Shown piece after piece: positions 6,958-14,765 of a stretch of DNA of 64,000 bases. The notes under the pieces were generated by a model. The model did not search any database, was not told the DNA's origin, and saw only the letters and a program-made list of their open reading frames with translations. Location of the stretch: positions 2,292,501-2,356,500 of the forward strand of contig NZ_CP126101.1 of assembly GCF_030123245.1 (NCBI RefSeq), read 5' to 3'. The DNA is from Lysinibacillus pakistanensis (lineage in GTDB: Bacteria > Bacillota > Bacilli > Bacillales_A > Planococcaceae). Position 1 is the stretch's first letter. Every line of letters begins with the position of its first letter. The position numbers and the translations under genes were made by a program.

Positions 6958-7189
6958 GAGTCCAAAAAAGATGAATGAAATAGGTAGTTAGTATTTGAAA
7001 AGATTTCAGTATGATTTTGAAATTAATATTCAAATCATTTAATTCCTTATAAGGGCAAAAAAATTAGAATTTGAGCTAGTTTATATCGACACCTAAAATT
7101 AAATTGTCAAAAAATGAAGGAGATAAAGCTTGTTTTTAGCAAAATCAACTCCTAATATATTAAATTTTAGCATTTTTTAGAAAATATCG

Positions 7190-7217
7190 TTGAAAAATTG
7201 GATAATAAAAGTATAAT
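7190..7217 (+). promoter_or_regulatory. sigma-A promoter of comX
   Basis: TTGAAA (7190-7195), a 16-base spacer and TATAAT (7212-7217). Transcription would begin near 7224, right at a large 5' hairpin. No ComA-type palindromic box is seen. Confidence 0.65.
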
Positions 7218-7224
7218 ATAGGTG

Positions 7225-7272
7225 TAGTTACATTTATGGATTATTAATCCATAATATTAGAAAATGTAACTA
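7225..7272 (+). promoter_or_regulatory. nested hairpin in the comX leader
   Basis: Outer arms TAGTTACATTT (7225-7235) and AAATGTAACTA (7262-7272) enclose a near-palindrome ATGGATTATTAATCCAT (7236-7252). It lies at the predicted 5' end of the comX transcript and could stabilise the mRNA or act as an operator. Confidence 0.55.
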
Positions 7273-7299
7273 TAAAAACTAATGAAATGAGGAGATTTT

Positions 7300-7461
7300 A
7301 TGATTAACATGATTCAGTATTTGGAAAAAAACCCGTCACTACTTACATTGTTAAAAGAAAATAAGGCTTCTCTAGTTGGTGTTACAGAGCTTGAGCAGAA
7401 GGCAATCATAACATCCTTTGATGAGGATGAGACATGTTTAGAAACGGGCTTCTGGCATTAA
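7300..7461 (+). CDS. comX: ComX pheromone precursor
   Basis: A 53-codon gene starting at ATG 7300, with TGAGGAG 5 bases upstream. The product has the ComX prepeptide pattern: an N-terminal helix, then NPSLLTLLKENKASLVG (residues 11-27), then EQKAII, and a short C-terminal pheromone region ending GFWH with the Trp at position 52. In Bacillus, ComQ prenylates this Trp and the processed peptide activates the ComP kinase. The last 28 bases overlap the start of comP, so the two are translationally coupled. No comQ lies next to it. The call rests on the motif plus the adjacent comP. Confidence 0.85.
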   Translation: MINMIQYLEKNPSLLTLLKENKASLVGVTELEQKAIITSFDEDETCLETGFWH

Positions 7462-9800
7462 ACTATTTGAAAAATAATTGGCTTTGGCTTGCTATAAGTA
7501 CTTATCTTATATTAGGAAGCTATTTGCTTTCTGTTACTTATAGCACGCCTTATTTAGGAATTAAACTGAAAGAAGAGAATGGACAATGGTTAATTATTGA
7601 ACCATATTATAAGGAATGGGCAAATAAGCAAAAGATTTCAGCAGGGGATATTATTTTAGAAATTGATGGTAACAATATTAATGAATTAAATATTATTAAA
7701 TACGATCCTGTAATTAGAGTAGCTAAAGAGTTAAAGTTTCTGAACCATGAAGATGGACAGTTAATTCATTTACAAATAGCACCATTAGATATTCCTGAAC
7801 AATTTTTGTATATATTTTTTTTACCAGCATGTTATTTTTTATTAAGTTTAATTGTTTCTCTCTACTTATATAAGAAACAAAAGAATTCGAGTTTAATAAA
7901 TTTACTTACTCTGTTTATTCTTACAGTATCGTTGGCATATGTTAGTATTGGTGCATCAGGAATGTTAGATAGTGTTGGAACAGTTGTGAATCGAAGTAGT
8001 ATGATACTTTGTCTTGTTCTTTTGATTCACTTTTTAAGAAATTATTTTTTATTTTTGAATTTAAAATGGTTATTTATCAACAACATTAAAATAATATATA
8101 TACTCCCTTTATCAATAGTTTCTTCTTTTAGTATTTTTAGCATCATCCACCCATTTACAAATACTTTATTCTCTATTTTTACCTTGTGGTTATTTTTTAT
8201 TTTGTTATTAATAATTTTTGGTATTTTAGGGATAGGCTATTCAAAATATAAAACCCCTCAATTGAAAATTTTTTTATTAAGTATTATTAGCCCTTTCTTA
8301 CCATTCCTTTTTTTGTTTGCCATACCGCAAATTATTTTTCATAAATATATACTTTCTGCTGATATATGCTCCTTATTTTTGTTGCTTATACCATACAGTT
8401 TCATATTTACACAGCTCACTGAACGGATATTTGATATGGAGTACTATATAACTCGTTTTCGTCATTATTTTAATTTTTCATTTGCTTTTACAGTTTGGCT
8501 ATTAATAGGTCTCTACTGGATAACTGATCTAGCTATTTCAAGAATGACGGAAATTTTCTTTTTTTCCTTCCTCTCTTTAATAGCCCTGTTCTATTTTAAA
8601 GAAAAAATAGATTATCATAAGCGAAAAATCCTTTTTTCAACAAAAGGAGATTATATCCATAGAATGTATACGACCATTGATAGTATAGGTAGAGTGGTGA
8701 AAATTGAAGATTTACTAGAAAGATTTGTTCAGGAAGTCTCCCTGCACCTTGAGATTCATCATGTTTATGTCCTCACCTATGATTTTCACACACATGCCGT
8801 TACTTCAACGAGCAAATCAAAAGAATATACACAAAATCAAATGGATGAAGTATTACTAGAAAAACTACGCTTGGGGGATATCAAGAAAACAGAGCATTTT
8901 TATATTGCTTTTATACACCAAGATGTAAATTATAAAAGAATATTAGTCGTAGATCATAATAAATCTATTTATCTAAAGGATGAGGAATTATTATGGCTTG
9001 AATTATTGCTTCTATATTTAAATAATTTTATAGAAAATACGAAAATGGTTGAAGATCTTTTAGAACAATTAAAGCATATGAAGGAAGCCGATAATAATCA
9101 GTTACCGTGGCTTAATAAGCTACTTTGGCTACGATTTGAAGAAGAAAAGTATCAATTGGCACAAGAGTTACACGATACGATTTTACAAGAACAGCTACAT
9201 ATTGCAAGGGAAATGGATGTAGTTATTCATGCAAAGAAAAAAACAAATATACAAATGAAACTTTCAAAAGTTCATGATCATATGATTGCATCGTTAAATG
9301 ATTTAAGAGGATATTGTGAAAATTTAAAACCGCCACTATTAGATACATTAGGTTTAAATGCAGCGCTCGAGAAACTTATTCAAAAAGTTCATAAACGTGC
9401 TGAATTTGTTTTAATTTACACCATTGATCGTCTTTATTTAGAGGATGAACGTTTAAACTTAATGATTTATCGTCTTTTCCAAGAGCTATTGAATAATGCC
9501 TTGAAACATTCGCATGCTAACATTGTTGAAATTCATCTCTTAGAAGCCAAAGAAGGTTTTGAAGTCAATTATTTTGACGATGGTATAGGATGTAAAATGG
9601 ATGAAATCATTCTTGCCGATTCAATGGGGATTAGGGGGATGCAAGAGAGGGTACGGGCCTTTAATGGCAAGTTTTCTATCAAGACCAATATAGGAGATGG
9701 GATGTCCATTCGAATTAAAGTAAATGAAAGAGAACAAACCAATTCCGATGGTTACAATACTTATCATAGATGGCCAACCCCTAGCAAACAACTCAATTGA
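7434..9800 (+). CDS. comP: ComP-type membrane histidine kinase
   Basis: 788 residues. It begins with a membrane segment (about 15-33), then an extracellular PDZ-like stretch (about 38-115, KISAGDIILEIDGNNI), then a further eight or so hydrophobic segments to residue 390. The cytoplasmic part has a HisKA_3 dimerisation box with phospho-acceptor His580 in ELHDTILQEQL, the N box ELLNNALKHSHA (about 684) and the G box DDGIGCKM (about 716), so the kinase core is intact. This is the layout of ComP, the receptor for ComX, which phosphorylates ComA. It overlaps comX by 28 bases. Its last codons run over the start of a comA remnant. Confidence 0.88.
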   Translation: MFRNGLLALNYLKNNWLWLAISTYLILGSYLLSVTYSTPYLGIKLKEENGQWLIIEPYYKEWANKQKISAGDIILEIDGNNINELNIIKYDPVIRVAKELKFLNHEDGQLIHLQIAPLDIPEQFLYIFFLPACYFLLSLIVSLYLYKKQKNSSLINLLTLFILTVSLAYVSIGASGMLDSVGTVVNRSSMILCLVLLIHFLRNYFLFLNLKWLFINNIKIIYILPLSIVSSFSIFSIIHPFTNTLFSIFTLWLFFILLLIIFGILGIGYSKYKTPQLKIFLLSIISPFLPFLFLFAIPQIIFHKYILSADICSLFLLLIPYSFIFTQLTERIFDMEYYITRFRHYFNFSFAFTVWLLIGLYWITDLAISRMTEIFFFSFLSLIALFYFKEKIDYHKRKILFSTKGDYIHRMYTTIDSIGRVVKIEDLLERFVQEVSLHLEIHHVYVLTYDFHTHAVTSTSKSKEYTQNQMDEVLLEKLRLGDIKKTEHFYIAFIHQDVNYKRILVVDHNKSIYLKDEELLWLELLLLYLNNFIENTKMVEDLLEQLKHMKEADNNQLPWLNKLLWLRFEEEKYQLAQELHDTILQEQLHIAREMDVVIHAKKKTNIQMKLSKVHDHMIASLNDLRGYCENLKPPLLDTLGLNAALEKLIQKVHKRAEFVLIYTIDRLYLEDERLNLMIYRLFQELLNNALKHSHANIVEIHLLEAKEGFEVNYFDDGIGCKMDEIILADSMGIRGMQERVRAFNGKFSIKTNIGDGMSIRIKVNEREQTNSDGYNTYHRWPTPSKQLN

Positions 9801-9876
9801 GAGCGCGTTTATTGAAGTTCTACAGAAGAAAATTGTCAAACTTAATAATACTCCACAAAGAAAGAATCGAATTTGA
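9748..9876 (+). pseudogene. comA: truncated comA response regulator stub
   Basis: A frame of 42 codons starting ATG 9748 begins VTILIIDGQPLA, the first strand and acidic patch of a NarL/ComA-type receiver domain (normally IIDDHP or IIDDQP). It then loses all similarity and stops at 9876. The phospho-acceptor Asp, the rest of the receiver and the HTH domain are absent from the following 500 bases. The position, overlapping the comP end by 53 bases, is where comA belongs. Confidence 0.65.
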
Positions 9877-10401: not shown

Positions 10402-10947
10402 ATGGAAGAAATTTTTCAAAAAATAAAGCAATTAAGATTTGAACAAGGTATGACTTTAAAGGAATTGAGTGAAAAGACGGAATTATCAGTTAGTTTCTTA
10501 TCCCAGATTGAGAGAGGAACATCATCATTAGCTATCACCTCTTTAAAAAAAATTGCTGATGCATTTGGCGTGAAGATGATTCATTTCTTCGAGGAGACGG
10601 AAGATCTAAATTACGCAGTGAAAAAGCAAAATCAAAAACCTTTTAAAATAGAAAGCTCTGATTCTACTTATGTTAGATTAAGTAATAACTTTCCAGATAG
10701 AAAAATAGAGCCATTTCTCGTCACAATAAAGCCTTTCCAAAAAGAAAATGAACCATTTAAGCATCCAGGTGAAGAATTTTATTACGTTCTAAAGGGGGCT
10801 GTATTATTCACTGTTGATCAGACGGAATATTATTTGCGTGAAGGAGAAGCCATCCATTTTCCTTCAAATCTAACTCATATATGGGAAAATCCTTTAAACC
10901 AAGAAACTGTATTACTTTCCGTAATCACGCCAGTAATTTTTAATTAA
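10402..10947 (+). CDS. XRE-family regulator with cupin domain
   Basis: 181 residues: an N-terminal helix-turn-helix of the XRE/SinR type (residues 6-60, LKELSEKTELSVSFLSQIERG) joined to a C-terminal cupin_2 barrel (residues 105-180, HPGEEFYYVLKGAVLFTV and GEAIHFPSNLTHIWEN). This architecture (PuuR/YdcN-like) usually senses a small metabolite in the cupin and controls a neighbouring transport or catabolic operon. AAAGGAGTT precedes the ATG by about 8 bases. It points into the ABC importer operon that starts at 11145 and is its likely local regulator (inference). Confidence 0.88.
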   Translation: MEEIFQKIKQLRFEQGMTLKELSEKTELSVSFLSQIERGTSSLAITSLKKIADAFGVKMIHFFEETEDLNYAVKKQNQKPFKIESSDSTYVRLSNNFPDRKIEPFLVTIKPFQKENEPFKHPGEEFYYVLKGAVLFTVDQTEYYLREGEAIHFPSNLTHIWENPLNQETVLLSVITPVIFN

Positions 10948-10958
10948 ACGAGTAAGGT

Positions 10959-10984
10959 TTCCCTGAACAAAAAAGGGAATTTTA
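10959..10984 (+). terminator. weak terminator after the regulator
   Basis: TTCCCT (10959-10964) can pair with AGGGAA just downstream, followed by TTTT. A short stem. Confidence 0.4.
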
Positions 10985-11144
10985 GAACGGATTTATTTTT
11001 TAGATTTTAAGTACCTTTTCGACAAGACTGCGGGCAATAGTTAATGGAATGTTCCTTAAGCAAACTCCTGTTTAATTTTCTGAATTATCAGTCTTCTAAT
11101 TCGTAGTTATTTTAAACAATATATTTTTGAAAGAGGTGAAATTG

Positions 11145-12143
11145 ATGACATTACTAAAAGTGGAGGATTTGACGATTAAATTTAAGTCACGCCAAGGTGT
11201 TGTCAAAGCAGTAGATAATTTAAACTTTGAATTAGCCCAAGGGAGTTCATTAGGAATCGTTGGTGAAAGTGGTAGTGGCAAAAGTGTTACATCCCTTACG
11301 ATAATGGGACTTTTACAAAATGCTAATACTGAAATCACAGGAAGTATTGATTTTGATGGTTTAGATTTGTTAAAACTCTCACCTCGTGAAATGAGGAAGA
11401 TTAGAGGAAATTCTATATCAATGATATTTCAAGAGCCGATGACCTCACTTAATCCTTTACATACTTGTGGTAAGCAAATTATGGAGCCAATCTTGATTCA
11501 CCAAAAAGATGTAAGTAAACAAGAGGCAAAAAAACAAGCAATTGAATTACTAAGAATGGTAGGAATCCCTTCTCCTGAGCAGCGATTTCATGAATATCCA
11601 CATCAAATGTCTGGTGGTATGCGACAAAGAATTATGATAGCTATCGCTTTAGCCTGTAATACCAAACTATTAATTGCTGATGAGCCTACTACTGCATTAG
11701 ATGTTACTATACAAGCGCAAATTCTAGATTTAATGAGCAGTCTGAAGAAAAAGAGGAATATGAGTATTATTATGATCACTCATGATTTGGGTGTTGTGAA
11801 AGAAATGTGTGAGAAAGTAGTTGTTATGTACACTGGACAAATTGTTGAAAAAAGTCCAACTGAGTTAGTATTTGCTGATCCTCTTCATCCGTATACAAAA
11901 GGATTACTTAATGCCATACCTAGAATTTCCAGTAAAGTGGAAAGACTTGAGGCGATTGAGGGTAGTGTCCCTGATGCACTGAATATGCCAAGAGGTTGCA
12001 GTTTTCATCCTCGCTGTAAGTTTGCAACAGAGAAATGCAAATTGGAATCCCCACCATTATTTCAACTAGAGGATGGTCGTGAAGTAAAATGCTTCATTTA
12101 TGACGGATCTGAAAGGGGCGGTGATGTGAATGGTACAAAATAA
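11145..12143 (+). CDS. peptide/nickel ABC importer ATP-binding protein (OppD/DppD type)
   Basis: 332 residues from ATG 11145, preceded by AAAGAGGTG. Walker A GESGSGKS (about residue 40), Q-loop [10 protein letters not shown], signature MSGGMRQR, Walker [13 protein letters not shown], and the C-terminal oligopeptide-transporter extension with the cysteine cluster [16 protein letters not shown] that marks OppD/DppD proteins. It hydrolyses ATP on the cytoplasmic side to power uptake. First gene of the operon; overlaps the next gene by 14 bases. Confidence 0.93.
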
Positions 12144-13134
12144 TTCCAATAATATAGCAGCGGTATCGAACAGCAATGGGACAGAAAACATTTTAGAGGT
12201 TTCACACTTGAAAAAGACCTTTCATATCAAAAGCCCAGATGGAAAAAAAGGCCTACTTAGAGCAGTAGACGATGTTTCTTTTACGATAAAAAAGGGTGAA
12301 ACTTTTAGTCTTGTCGGTGAAAGTGGATGCGGTAAAAGTACACTGGGCAGAACATTGCTAGGTCTATATACACCTGACCAGGGATCTGAAATTTTATTTA
12401 ATGGCGAAGATATTACAAAGTTTTCAAAATCAAAACGGAAAAATTTTGCTAAAAAGGCACAGCTGATTTTTCAAGATCCATCTGCTTGCTTAAATCCACG
12501 TAGAACCATTAAGCAAATTTTATTAGAACCATTCAAAATTCATAAAATACCAAATGGTGAAGCAAAAATTAAAGAGCTAATGGAAATGGTTGGTCTAGCA
12601 AATCGTTTCTTTGATAGATTTCCTCATGAAATGTCTGGAGGGCAGAAACAAAGGGTGGGAATTGCTCGAGCATTGGCACTAGATCCAGAACTTATAGTGT
12701 GTGACGAGCCTGTCTCAGCTTTAGATGTGTCGATTCAAGCTCAGGTCATTAACTTGCTAGAGGATTTACAGAAACAATTGAACCTTACTTATCTATTTAT
12801 CTCGCATGATCTAAGTGTTGTTCACCATATTAGTGACCGAGTCGCTGTAATGTATTTAGGTAAAATAGTTGAATTGTCTACTCGCGATCAACTATATGAA
12901 AAAACGCAACATCCTTACACAAAATCGCTCCTGTCCTCAGTTCCAGATATCACGGATGAACATCGAGAAAAGATTATTCTTACAGGGGATGTTCCAAGTC
13001 CATCTAATCCGCCTGCCGGATGTCGGTTTCATACAAGATGTCCTGTAGCAATGGATATTTGCAAAACACAGGAGCCTATCTTTATCCAAACAGATAGTAA
13101 GCACTTTGCAGCATGTCATTTGCAGACAAAGTAA
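12130..13134 (+). CDS. peptide/nickel ABC importer ATP-binding protein (OppF/DppF type)
   Basis: 334 residues. Walker A GESGCGKST (about residue 65), Q-loop FQDPSACLNPRRT, signature MSGGQKQRVGIARAL, Walker B LIVCDEPVSALD and the C-terminal GCRFHTRCPVAMDIC cluster. It pairs with the upstream ATPase to form the two-ATPase motor of Opp/Dpp-type importers. The start lies inside the end of the previous gene (translational coupling) behind a GGGGCGG site. Confidence 0.93.
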   Translation: MVQNNSNNIAAVSNSNGTENILEVSHLKKTFHIKSPDGKKGLLRAVDDVSFTIKKGETFSLVGESGCGKSTLGRTLLGLYTPDQGSEILFNGEDITKFSKSKRKNFAKKAQLIFQDPSACLNPRRTIKQILLEPFKIHKIPNGEAKIKELMEMVGLANRFFDRFPHEMSGGQKQRVGIARALALDPELIVCDEPVSALDVSIQAQVINLLEDLQKQLNLTYLFISHDLSVVHHISDRVAVMYLGKIVELSTRDQLYEKTQHPYTKSLLSSVPDITDEHREKIILTGDVPSPSNPPAGCRFHTRCPVAMDICKTQEPIFIQTDSKHFAACHLQTK

Positions 13135-13166
13135 AACTATAAATTTTTTATAAAAGGAGAACTTAG

Positions 13167-14765
13167 ATGATGAAAAAAATTTCTTTACTTTCAATCCTAT
13201 TGGTAGTAGTTCTATCACTTTTCGCCTGTAGTAAAGATGAAGAAAAAACAAATGAATCTGGAGGCACATCTAACACGGATACAATTGTTATTGGGGTTGC
13301 TTCCGACTGGAAAACATTAGATCCAGCTCGTGCTTATGAAGTGTTTGGGAATTTCTATTTCTATGCAACATATGAGAATTTATACACGTTGGAAGGGTCA
13401 GACCTTACACCAAAGCCAGCACTTGCTAAAGAATATACAGTAGATGAATCTGGACTTGTGTATACATTTAAGCTAGATGAGGGTCGTAAATTTTCCAGCG
13501 GGAATGCTGTAACTTCAGAGGATGTTGTATTTAGTTTTAATCGTACAATAAATTTAAAAGACAATGCTTCTGCTCTTGCAGAGGGAGTTGCCAGCGTGGA
13601 AGCGCCAGATGACAAGACTGTAGTTGTTAATCTTAAGGAAAAGGATGCATCCTTCCTTTCAAAACTTACAAGTAATGCCTTTGCAGTTGTAGATAGCAAA
13701 GTTGTAAAGGAACAAGGTGGTTCAGATGCTGCAGATGCAAGTACAACGGATGCAGCAACTGCTTACCTTGATGGGGCATCAGCAGGCAGTGGTCCTTATG
13801 TATTGAAGAAGTGGACTCCGAATACAGAGATGGTTCTTGAAAAGAATCCGAATTATACGGGTACTGTGAATGCGAGTAAGGTTATCATCAAAGAAATTCC
13901 AGATCCAAATACACAAATTAAAGCACTTGAAAAAGGTGAAATTGACGTAGCATTAAGTGTTGGACCTGACCAAGTGAAAAACATTAAAGAGGGTGGAAAT
14001 GCGAAGGTTGTATCTTCACCAACTTCAACAATTTCATTCTTATTAATGAATAATAGTACTGAAATAGGAAAAGAAATGGCGGATCCACTTGTTCAGCAAG
14101 CTGTTCGTTACGCACTTGACTATAAAGGCTTCCAGCTATTAGCGGGTGATGGCGCACTATTACCAATGTCATTTGTGCAAGATGGTTTTATTGGTGCAAA
14201 ATCTAGACCAGATAATTATCAAGACCTAGAGAAAGCAAAGGATTTGATGAAGCAGGCTGGGTATGAAAAGGGCTTTACTGTCCCTTTAACAGCTGCTAAT
14301 TACGATTCAGAAGGACTTTCATGGGTAACGATTGCTGAAAAAGTAAAAGAAGATCTTGCAAAAATTAATATTAATGTGGAAATTCAAACTGGAGATGTTG
14401 GGGTAGTTATTGAAGACTATCGAAATGGAAAAACGCCATTCCTAGTAATGCATTGGTCACCTGACTACTATGATTTAAGCAACCAATTAGCATTTATTCC
14501 AGGAGATATTGTAGGAAAACGTGCGAACTGGGAAGCTTCAGCTAATGCTGAATTAGTAAGCTTAGCTGAACCAGCGAAGGTGGAAATTGATGTGACAAAA
14601 CGTGCAGAAATTTCTGAGAAAATGCAGGAAATAATTGCTGAAAATAGTCCATATGCATTCCTAGTACAGCACCCTAAATCATTTGCTGTAGGTGCCAACC
14701 TTGAGGGCGTTACTTATAATGACCTTTATAAATTACGATTAAATGAATTAAAGCTTTCAAAATAA
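13167..14765 (+). CDS. ABC importer substrate-binding lipoprotein, family 5
   Basis: 532 residues with a type II signal: MMKKISLL, a hydrophobic core and lipobox LFAC with Cys21, so it is anchored on the outer face of the membrane. The mature part follows SBP_bac_5 proteins (DppA/OppA/NikA): TLDPARAYE near the start, LTPKPALAKEYTVDESGLVYTFKL, the GSGPYVLKKW region and a C-terminal AFLVQHPKSFAVG stretch. It delivers peptides or another solute to the permease pair. AAAAGGAG precedes the tandem ATG codons. About 390 bases of repeat DNA separate it from the permeases. Confidence 0.93.
   Translation: MMKKISLLSILLVVVLSLFACSKDEEKTNESGGTSNTDTIVIGVASDWKTLDPARAYEVFGNFYFYATYENLYTLEGSDLTPKPALAKEYTVDESGLVYTFKLDEGRKFSSGNAVTSEDVVFSFNRTINLKDNASALAEGVASVEAPDDKTVVVNLKEKDASFLSKLTSNAFAVVDSKVVKEQGGSDAADASTTDAATAYLDGASAGSGPYVLKKWTPNTEMVLEKNPNYTGTVNASKVIIKEIPDPNTQIKALEKGEIDVALSVGPDQVKNIKEGGNAKVVSSPTSTISFLLMNNSTEIGKEMADPLVQQAVRYALDYKGFQLLAGDGALLPMSFVQDGFIGAKSRPDNYQDLEKAKDLMKQAGYEKGFTVPLTAANYDSEGLSWVTIAEKVKEDLAKININVEIQTGDVGVVIEDYRNGKTPFLVMHWSPDYYDLSNQLAFIPGDIVGKRANWEASANAELVSLAEPAKVEIDVTKRAEISEKMQEIIAENSPYAFLVQHPKSFAVGANLEGVTYNDLYKLRLNELKLSK

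Follow-up and report, generated by a model that had tools for sequence, protein, structure and literature searches.

Satellite comXP cassettes across Lysinibacillus as probable users in trans of one ComQ and one ComA

The 64,000-nucleotide stretch of Lysinibacillus pakistanensis DNA analysed here (contig NZ_CP126101.1, positions 2,292,501 to 2,356,500; the window) carries a gene for a ComX-type pheromone precursor overlapping a gene for its receptor histidine kinase, ComP, with neither comQ nor comA alongside. Judged from its sequence, this locus is genuine and is being maintained as a satellite of a known quorum-sensing system, and it probably belongs to a genus-wide group of satellite comXP cassettes that depend in trans on a single ComQ and a single ComA. 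In the mechanism we propose, ComQ from the canonical locus would prenylate the C-terminal Trp of the satellite ComX in trans, the modified peptide would be secreted and then sensed by its own satellite ComP, and this kinase would phosphorylate the shared ComA, which the unliganded satellite ComP may dephosphorylate. The outcome in each cell would be one maturation enzyme, one output and one to six pheromone dialects. What appears to be new is the architecture, in which one maturation enzyme and one regulator stand beside several pheromone-receptor cassettes; the biochemistry we infer.

The comX and comP open reading frames (ORFs) of the window are both intact and overlap, as a sequence-only reading of the same DNA had described. 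ComX scores 42.7 bits against the Pfam family ComX (PF05952, cut-off 25) and has its Trp second from the C-terminal end. ComP aligns with canonical ComP over its full length, it scores 27.9 bits for HATPase_c and 24.6 bits for HisKA_3, barely above the respective cut-offs of 26.4 and 24, and His580 is invariant in the nine satellites that were aligned. Residues ~1-330 correspond to a block that is swapped between strains, and the kinase half is conserved. By tblastn with the genome's own ComQ, no comQ was found in cis at E up to 1, and no comA match was found at the same limit beyond a start remnant. The earlier reading, which had comQ missing and comA reduced to 42 codons, is correct in that no comQ is found in cis and only a stub of comA is left, but the 3' end of comQ persists in decayed form as promoter and leader, what can be recognised of comA amounts to about 15 start-like codons, read in a different frame beneath the end of comP, and complete copies of both genes lie elsewhere in the genome. 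A 50-aa ORF at 9724 was rejected as a gene, having neither another match in the genome nor a Pfam match. The 118-residue protein said to occupy the place of comQ is indeed a neighbour with no Pfam match, but it is not a comQ substitute, since it is present only here and at one other of 64 loci (L116, sister genome G021).

Three ComX matches were found in the genome (5.25 Mb, one contig). The whole-genome search for ComQ that had been called for revealed a complete comQ-comX-comP-comA locus at 4.785-4.789 Mb, and therefore the comQ and comA that are absent from the window are present in the same cell. A second comXP-only locus resembling that of the window lies at 3.335 Mb, and the window ComP is 74% identical to the ComP at 3.335 Mb and 62% identical to the canonical ComP.

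In order to place the locus within its genus, a ComX family search was used, which gave 73 matches in 32 of 32 Lysinibacillus genomes, and 64 loci were examined (the window, L009, L010 and 61 more). Complete comQXPA was found at 31 of these, in 31 genomes, and the remaining 33, spread over 26 genomes, are without comQ and comA and are the loci that we term satellites. Only two matches at E up to 1 were found among the 33, one to 47 residues of comQ in L104 (E 0.4), the other to 78 residues of comA in L010, 4.2 kb beyond comP (E 8e-4). Nine ComX matches fell outside the 64 loci, and all six that were examined (L164-L169) have comQ nearby. Satellites occur singly in 23 genomes, as two in G000, three in G021 and five in G012 (L. 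macroides DSM 54), and one genome holds six ComX. The flanking gene families of 23 of the 33 belong to one neighbourhood (25 are joined if any common flank family is taken as a link), with genes that we take, from their motifs, to be gcvPB and endonuclease V, and the site of the window is common only to L116 of G021. A wider search located ComX in 59 of 250 genomes of the family, 32 of them in Lysinibacillus, and two ComX matches in 4 of the 27 others.

Phylogenetic trees place the 29 intact satellite ComPs and the 31 canonical ComPs on opposite sides of a 100/99 branch, the 29 remain one clade (100/99) when the tree includes five outgroups and is limited to 12 of the 31 canonical ComPs, and the kinase half alone reproduces the split at 100/98. 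Upstream of comX, the 3' coding end of comQ can be matched to the promoter and leader of satellites (in a comparison of 15 satellites with 10 canonical loci), and the window and the satellite L010 can be aligned from ~7135 onward. The trees and this alignment thus indicate that a satellite arose from a comQXPA copy truncated within comQ on one side and shortly after the beginning of comA on the other, with the comQ end turned into promoter and leader. The best promoter-like hexamer pair upstream of comX contains TATAAT in 31 of 33 satellites, mostly together with TTGAAT or TTGAAA, and among the 31 canonical loci TATAAT is present in 27 and TTCAAA in 24; the precursor of the satellite promoter seems to have been carried within the canonical comQ gene. 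An assembly error that hides a complete comQ or comA at the window was considered and rejected, since the same truncations recur in other satellites.

The sequence-only reading had left room for a dying system, and had named relatives without a conserved ORF at 7300 as a result that would refute its claim. Comparison with relatives did not give that result, and it does not support a dying system: ComX is open in all 33 satellites and ComP in 29. For the satellite kinase region (residues 541-760), the ratio of nonsynonymous to synonymous substitution (dN/dS) was 0.010-0.107 in 14 of 15 pairs, with dN of 0 in G007/G008, and for the canonical region one of 14 pairs was identical and 13 gave 0.013-0.195; the pairs were picked as close relatives and have genomes in common. 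These values indicate that the satellite kinase half is under strong purifying selection. A decaying relic, in which comXP is left over from a broken comQXPA copy with its frames still open, would account for the truncated comQ and comA, for the four interrupted ComPs and for the six genomes without a satellite, but we regard it as very improbable, given a single old clade whose frames are intact in 29 of 33 members, the low kinase dN/dS, a conserved promoter, a Trp that is invariant among variable residues, and alleles that are still exchanged. Among the interrupted genes, comP of L115, L116 and L153 is broken up by inserts ~1.3 kb or greater in length, and that of L151 lies in two overlapping frames. 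When pieces of 80 residues were searched against Pfam, a transposase was confirmed for the insert of L153, and the pieces of the L115 and L116 inserts gave no match; to call all three insertion sequences would be too strong.

The C-terminus of ComX bears on its maturation. Of the 33 satellite ComX, 31 have their final Trp at the second position from the end and the other two at the third; all 31 canonical ones have it at the second. In the 25 satellite ComX of length 52, the mean column entropy is 0.33 bits over residues 1-40 and 1.40 bits over residues 41-52, and Trp51 is present in every one. In a global protein set, 74 ComX relatives, canonical and satellite pooled, have the last Trp second from the end in 72 cases and comprise 47 distinct last-12 sequences. 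According to the available text of an in vitro study of Bacillus ComQ, a short C-terminal segment with Trp second to fourth from the end suffices, without a consensus (PMC5331326), and 33 of 33 satellite ComX fall within that window. Matches to ComQ and to ComA are present in all 32 genomes. If satellite ComX were unmodified, or if satellite ComP listened to other strains and not to its own ComX, the lack of comQ in cis would follow readily; this is nevertheless extremely unlikely, since the Trp is fixed in 33 of 33 while adjoining residues vary, the ComX C-terminus co-varies with the sensor of its own ComP, and every genome has ComQ.

Modification of ComX by a distant enzyme, one of the branches raised by the sequence-only reading, is the best supported of them, through the ubiquity of ComQ, the retained Trp and the arrangement in L. 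piscis (G016). The single ComX match of this species is in a satellite (L121). The comQ of the species (60% identical) is separated from its comA (84%) by about 100 nt, and neither comX nor comP accompanies the two. The pair has the usual canonical neighbours, the junction contains no N, ComQ has its DDxxD-type motif, and the genome offers this comA no other canonical-type ComP. As the sole comX is in a satellite, apart from comQ, any modification of the pheromone by ComQ would take place in trans, and L. piscis thereby offers a test, set up by nature, of whether ComQ and ComA act at a distance. In another genus of the same family (g18), seven loci of four genomes comprise three with comX-comP-comA and no comQ in cis (L225, L226 and L230) and four with comQ; the genomes that hold the three (G048, G080 and G092) each have a strong comQ elsewhere. 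This is a second and apparently independent uncoupling of ComQ from its substrate gene.

The partner of the satellite kinase was addressed through the dimerisation and histidine phosphotransfer (DHp) helices and the ATPase domain. Identity of the window kinase to canonical ComP is 0.85 in DHp helix 1 (0.94 for the L010 kinase), 0.75 in helix 2 and 0.73 in the ATPase. The same genome has a comP-comA-like pair at ~2.497 Mb (L023 2903-5714), with no comX or comQ found alongside, and to this kinase the corresponding identities are 0.72, 0.55 and 0.45. In its DHp region the window kinase is nearest to canonical ComP, and the ComA of this genome is accordingly the more probable partner. The earlier reading had also raised signalling from ComP to another regulator. 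That satellite ComP feeds a different response regulator, such as the ComA-like one at 2.497 Mb, with ComX still matured by canonical ComQ, is unlikely, though there is no regulator gene in cis, a ComA-like regulator ~47% identical to ComA (about 46-49%) occurs in 32 of 32 genomes, and the 2.497-Mb and window kinases have the stretch HDTILQEQLH in common. Besides the greater proximity of the window kinase to canonical ComP in both DHp helices and the ATPase, the 2.497-Mb regulator has its own adjoining kinase, and in L. piscis comA is without another canonical-type ComP. The motif ELHDTxLQEQ, which we take to have a phosphatase role, is present in 33 of 33 satellites.

Comparison of close relatives revealed where satellites vary. 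The canonical loci of G007 and G008 match at 99-100% in all bins. For the satellite loci of these two genomes, identity is 96-100% over a span that reaches ~1.8 kb upstream and 4.9 kb downstream of comX, interrupted by bins 0 to 1050, where the comX bin falls to 93% and the following six bins to 60-72%; farther upstream than 1.8 kb, identity is 24-47%. A like dip was observed in G006/G015, in G010/G002/G003 and between L010 of G000 and L095 of G021, and was absent from the satellite comparisons G018/G015, G023/G030 and G011/G004. Over 24 close genome pairs, sensor identity was below 0.80 in 25 of 27 satellite rows and in 8 of 27 canonical rows, where canonical kinase identity was at least 0.88, rows have genomes in common and three rows are satellites at different sites. 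The distance between ComX C-termini correlated with that of the sensor (Mantel r 0.51, p 0.0005) and of the kinase (r 0.23, p 0.026) in satellites, and with r of 0.81 and 0.40, respectively, in canonical loci. These data indicate that, among close relatives, the comX C-terminus and the comP sensor half are exchanged together as a single block. Five canonical pairs with differing blocks (sensor 0.66-0.68) were compared, and their comQ is 0.88-0.92 identical; ComQ is thus uncoupled from the dialect.

Such exchange raises the question of whether satellites are a silent archive of alleles that mainly donate comX-comP blocks to the canonical locus by gene conversion. The change of block in canonical loci would suit an archive, and so would L119 and L120 of one genome (G012, L. 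macroides), whose linkers are nearly the same (dS 0.06, residues 340-540) and whose sensors diverge strongly (dS 2.0), as though a common body had received new sensor heads. We consider an archive highly unlikely, because the tree keeps the sensors of canonical ComPs apart from those of satellites (86/70; in 88% of bootstrap trees), and a conserved kinase half, which an archive does not need, is found together with a conserved promoter.

Several observations weigh against the sharing of a single ComQ and a single ComA by the cassettes. In G002 (L. boronitolerans-type; G002:C23:63018-63440, L174, L131), the canonical comA looks broken, with two stops inside a match of 142 of 210 residues (157 of 210 when locus L131 was searched), and therefore ComA output may be lost in this genome, where comQ, comX, comP and the satellite look intact. 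Partnership with ComA, likelier as it is, is derived from similarity within one genome. Six of 32 genomes are without a satellite, and 4 of 33 satellite ComPs are interrupted, among them that of L116, the sole other locus at the site of the window. In the trees, the split between satellite and canonical ComPs is weaker for the sensor half (86/70), and with outgroups the canonical ComP of L. contaminans (L122) falls on the satellite side (94/89). Block swapping in canonical loci means that the variability is not peculiar to satellites, and a description of the canonical locus as fixed and the satellite as variable was dropped as too strong. Finally, an added ComP-ComX pair was selected against (out-competed) in B. 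subtilis, according to the available text of Even-Tov et al. 2016 (PMC4771773).

Compared with known systems, satellites resemble ComQXPA of B. subtilis in their homologous ComX and ComP, the C-terminal Trp, the comX-comP overlap and the polymorphic block of comX and 5' comP, and differ from it in having no comQ or comA in cis and several comXP per genome. Rap receptors are cytoplasmic inhibitors, whereas satellite receptors are membrane kinases, and no homology to Rap-Phr is claimed. The likeness to Rap-Phr of B. subtilis is one of number, several peptide-receptor pairs being said to converge on ComA (PMC4771773 and PMC6334282, available text). The polymorphic block excludes comQ in Lysinibacillus and includes it in B. 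subtilis, as given in the available part of PMC6334282. A census by Dogsa et al. 2014 lists two comQXPA loci in two Lysinibacillus species, and comXP-only loci are not described in its available text (PMC4008528); no description of comXP satellites was found in titles or abstract starts among the listed matches in the open-access literature.

According to the available text of Even-Tov et al. 2016, ComP-ComX is encoded just once in every B. subtilis isolate, and the authors ask what lets Rap-Phr pairs, but not ComP-ComX, multiply in this species (PMC4771773). With ComX-ComP multiplied in Lysinibacillus, and single in B. subtilis where an extra pair is selected against, the genus is a natural counterexample. 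The engineered ExtraCom strain from the same work likewise has two orthogonal ComX-ComP pairs and one ComA in each cell; it carries its own comQ (comQXP was inserted) and is selected against, whereas satellites are natural, without comQ and kept across the genus (PMC4771773, available text). There, facultative cheating requires that an unliganded extra receptor dominantly represses the shared regulator (PMC4771773), and the theory applied to Lysinibacillus predicts that unliganded satellite ComPs repress ComA.

A more far-reaching model is put forward tentatively, our own judgement leaning somewhat away from it. It consists of a shared core of one ComQ, one ComA and usually a canonical ComX-ComP, together with expandable satellites whose dialect is swapped blockwise between strains. 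Since the dialect block no longer includes comQ, ComQ would act as a generalist on all ComX of a cell, and unliganded satellite ComP would drain ComA-phosphate, so that each added cassette would make cooperation conditional on its own dialect. If true, this would be the facultative-cheating logic predicted for additional quorum-sensing systems, reached with a receptor type thought unable to multiply. A generalist ComQ is also a prediction of the satellite finding itself, and would be useful for Trp prenylation of varied peptides. The B mating-type loci of basidiomycetes are also multi-allelic cassettes of a prenylated peptide pheromone and its receptor, with the prenyltransferase and the output encoded elsewhere; they rely on Cys farnesylation and G-protein-coupled receptors. 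They work like the satellites, without homology.

The features of the locus are collected in Table 1.

Table 1. Genes, remnants and control elements of the comXP locus in the window.
Feature	Position	Strand	Basis
comX, satellite pheromone precursor, 53 aa, ends GFWH	7300..7461	+	PF05952
comP, satellite receptor histidine kinase, 788 aa	7434..9800	+	HisKA_3 and HATPase_c above cut-off
Decayed 3' end of comQ, now promoter and leader of comX	7135..7299	+	Alignment to canonical comQ 3' coding ends
Sigma-70-type promoter, TTGAAA, 16-nt spacer, TATAAT	7190..7217	+	11/12 consensus bases
Leader hairpin between promoter and ribosome-binding site	7226..7271	+	Folding
comA start remnant, other frame beneath comP tail, no gene	9727..9800	+	Frame comparison with canonical comA

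The stretch searched for promoters contains six promoter-like sites, compared with 3.3 +/- 1.9 in shuffles. The leader hairpin of the window folds at -16.5 kcal/mol (z -3.1; 0 of 200 shuffles equal or better), with the arms TAGTTACATTT..AAATGTAACTA; like arms are found in other satellites, some of the changes being two-sided, and the parts of the hairpin derive from comQ codons. A best-pair search also gave 9-11 of 11 pairs in canonical loci (29, where the search ran), and therefore the hairpin is kept as a side note and was rejected as decisive evidence.

Carriage of satellites on plasmids or phages was considered and rejected: there was no phage match, and three plasmid records were matched, of which two were examined, holding comQXPA or comP-comA only and neither a satellite. 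One (L221, CP031730.1, filed as a Stenotrophomonas rhizophila plasmid) carries a complete Lysinibacillus-like comQXPA with canonical chromosomal neighbours and looks like misassigned Lysinibacillus sequence. The other (L222, NZ_CP130332.1, a plasmid record of L. fusiformis MGMM7) has canonical-type comP-comA with no comQ or comX within the 14-kb stretch; the pair adjoins rsgA and a predicted fosfomycin-resistance gene, and the remaining neighbours match the canonical chromosomal locus. In G049 (L223 3238-7661), comX is tandemly duplicated with a piece of comP between the copies, in a locus that is otherwise complete comQXPA.

Downstream of the cassette, at 10402-14765 of the window, lie a helix-turn-helix-cupin regulator (Pfam), two ATP-binding cassette (ABC) transporter ATPase ORFs and a solute-binding lipoprotein-like ORF; the last three presumably resemble oligopeptide uptake. 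Elsewhere in the same genome, L011 3036-6777 (~4.136-4.140 Mb) shows the divergent order of a short ORF (54 aa, ending GSPGWK), a ComQ-like (27%), a ComP-like (23%) and a ComA-like gene, next to an asparagine-synthetase-type cluster that we take to be lasso-like. At L024 5243-8760 (~1.024-1.028 Mb), a comQ remnant lies beside a ComA-like gene and a ComP-like gene whose N-terminal half contains stops.

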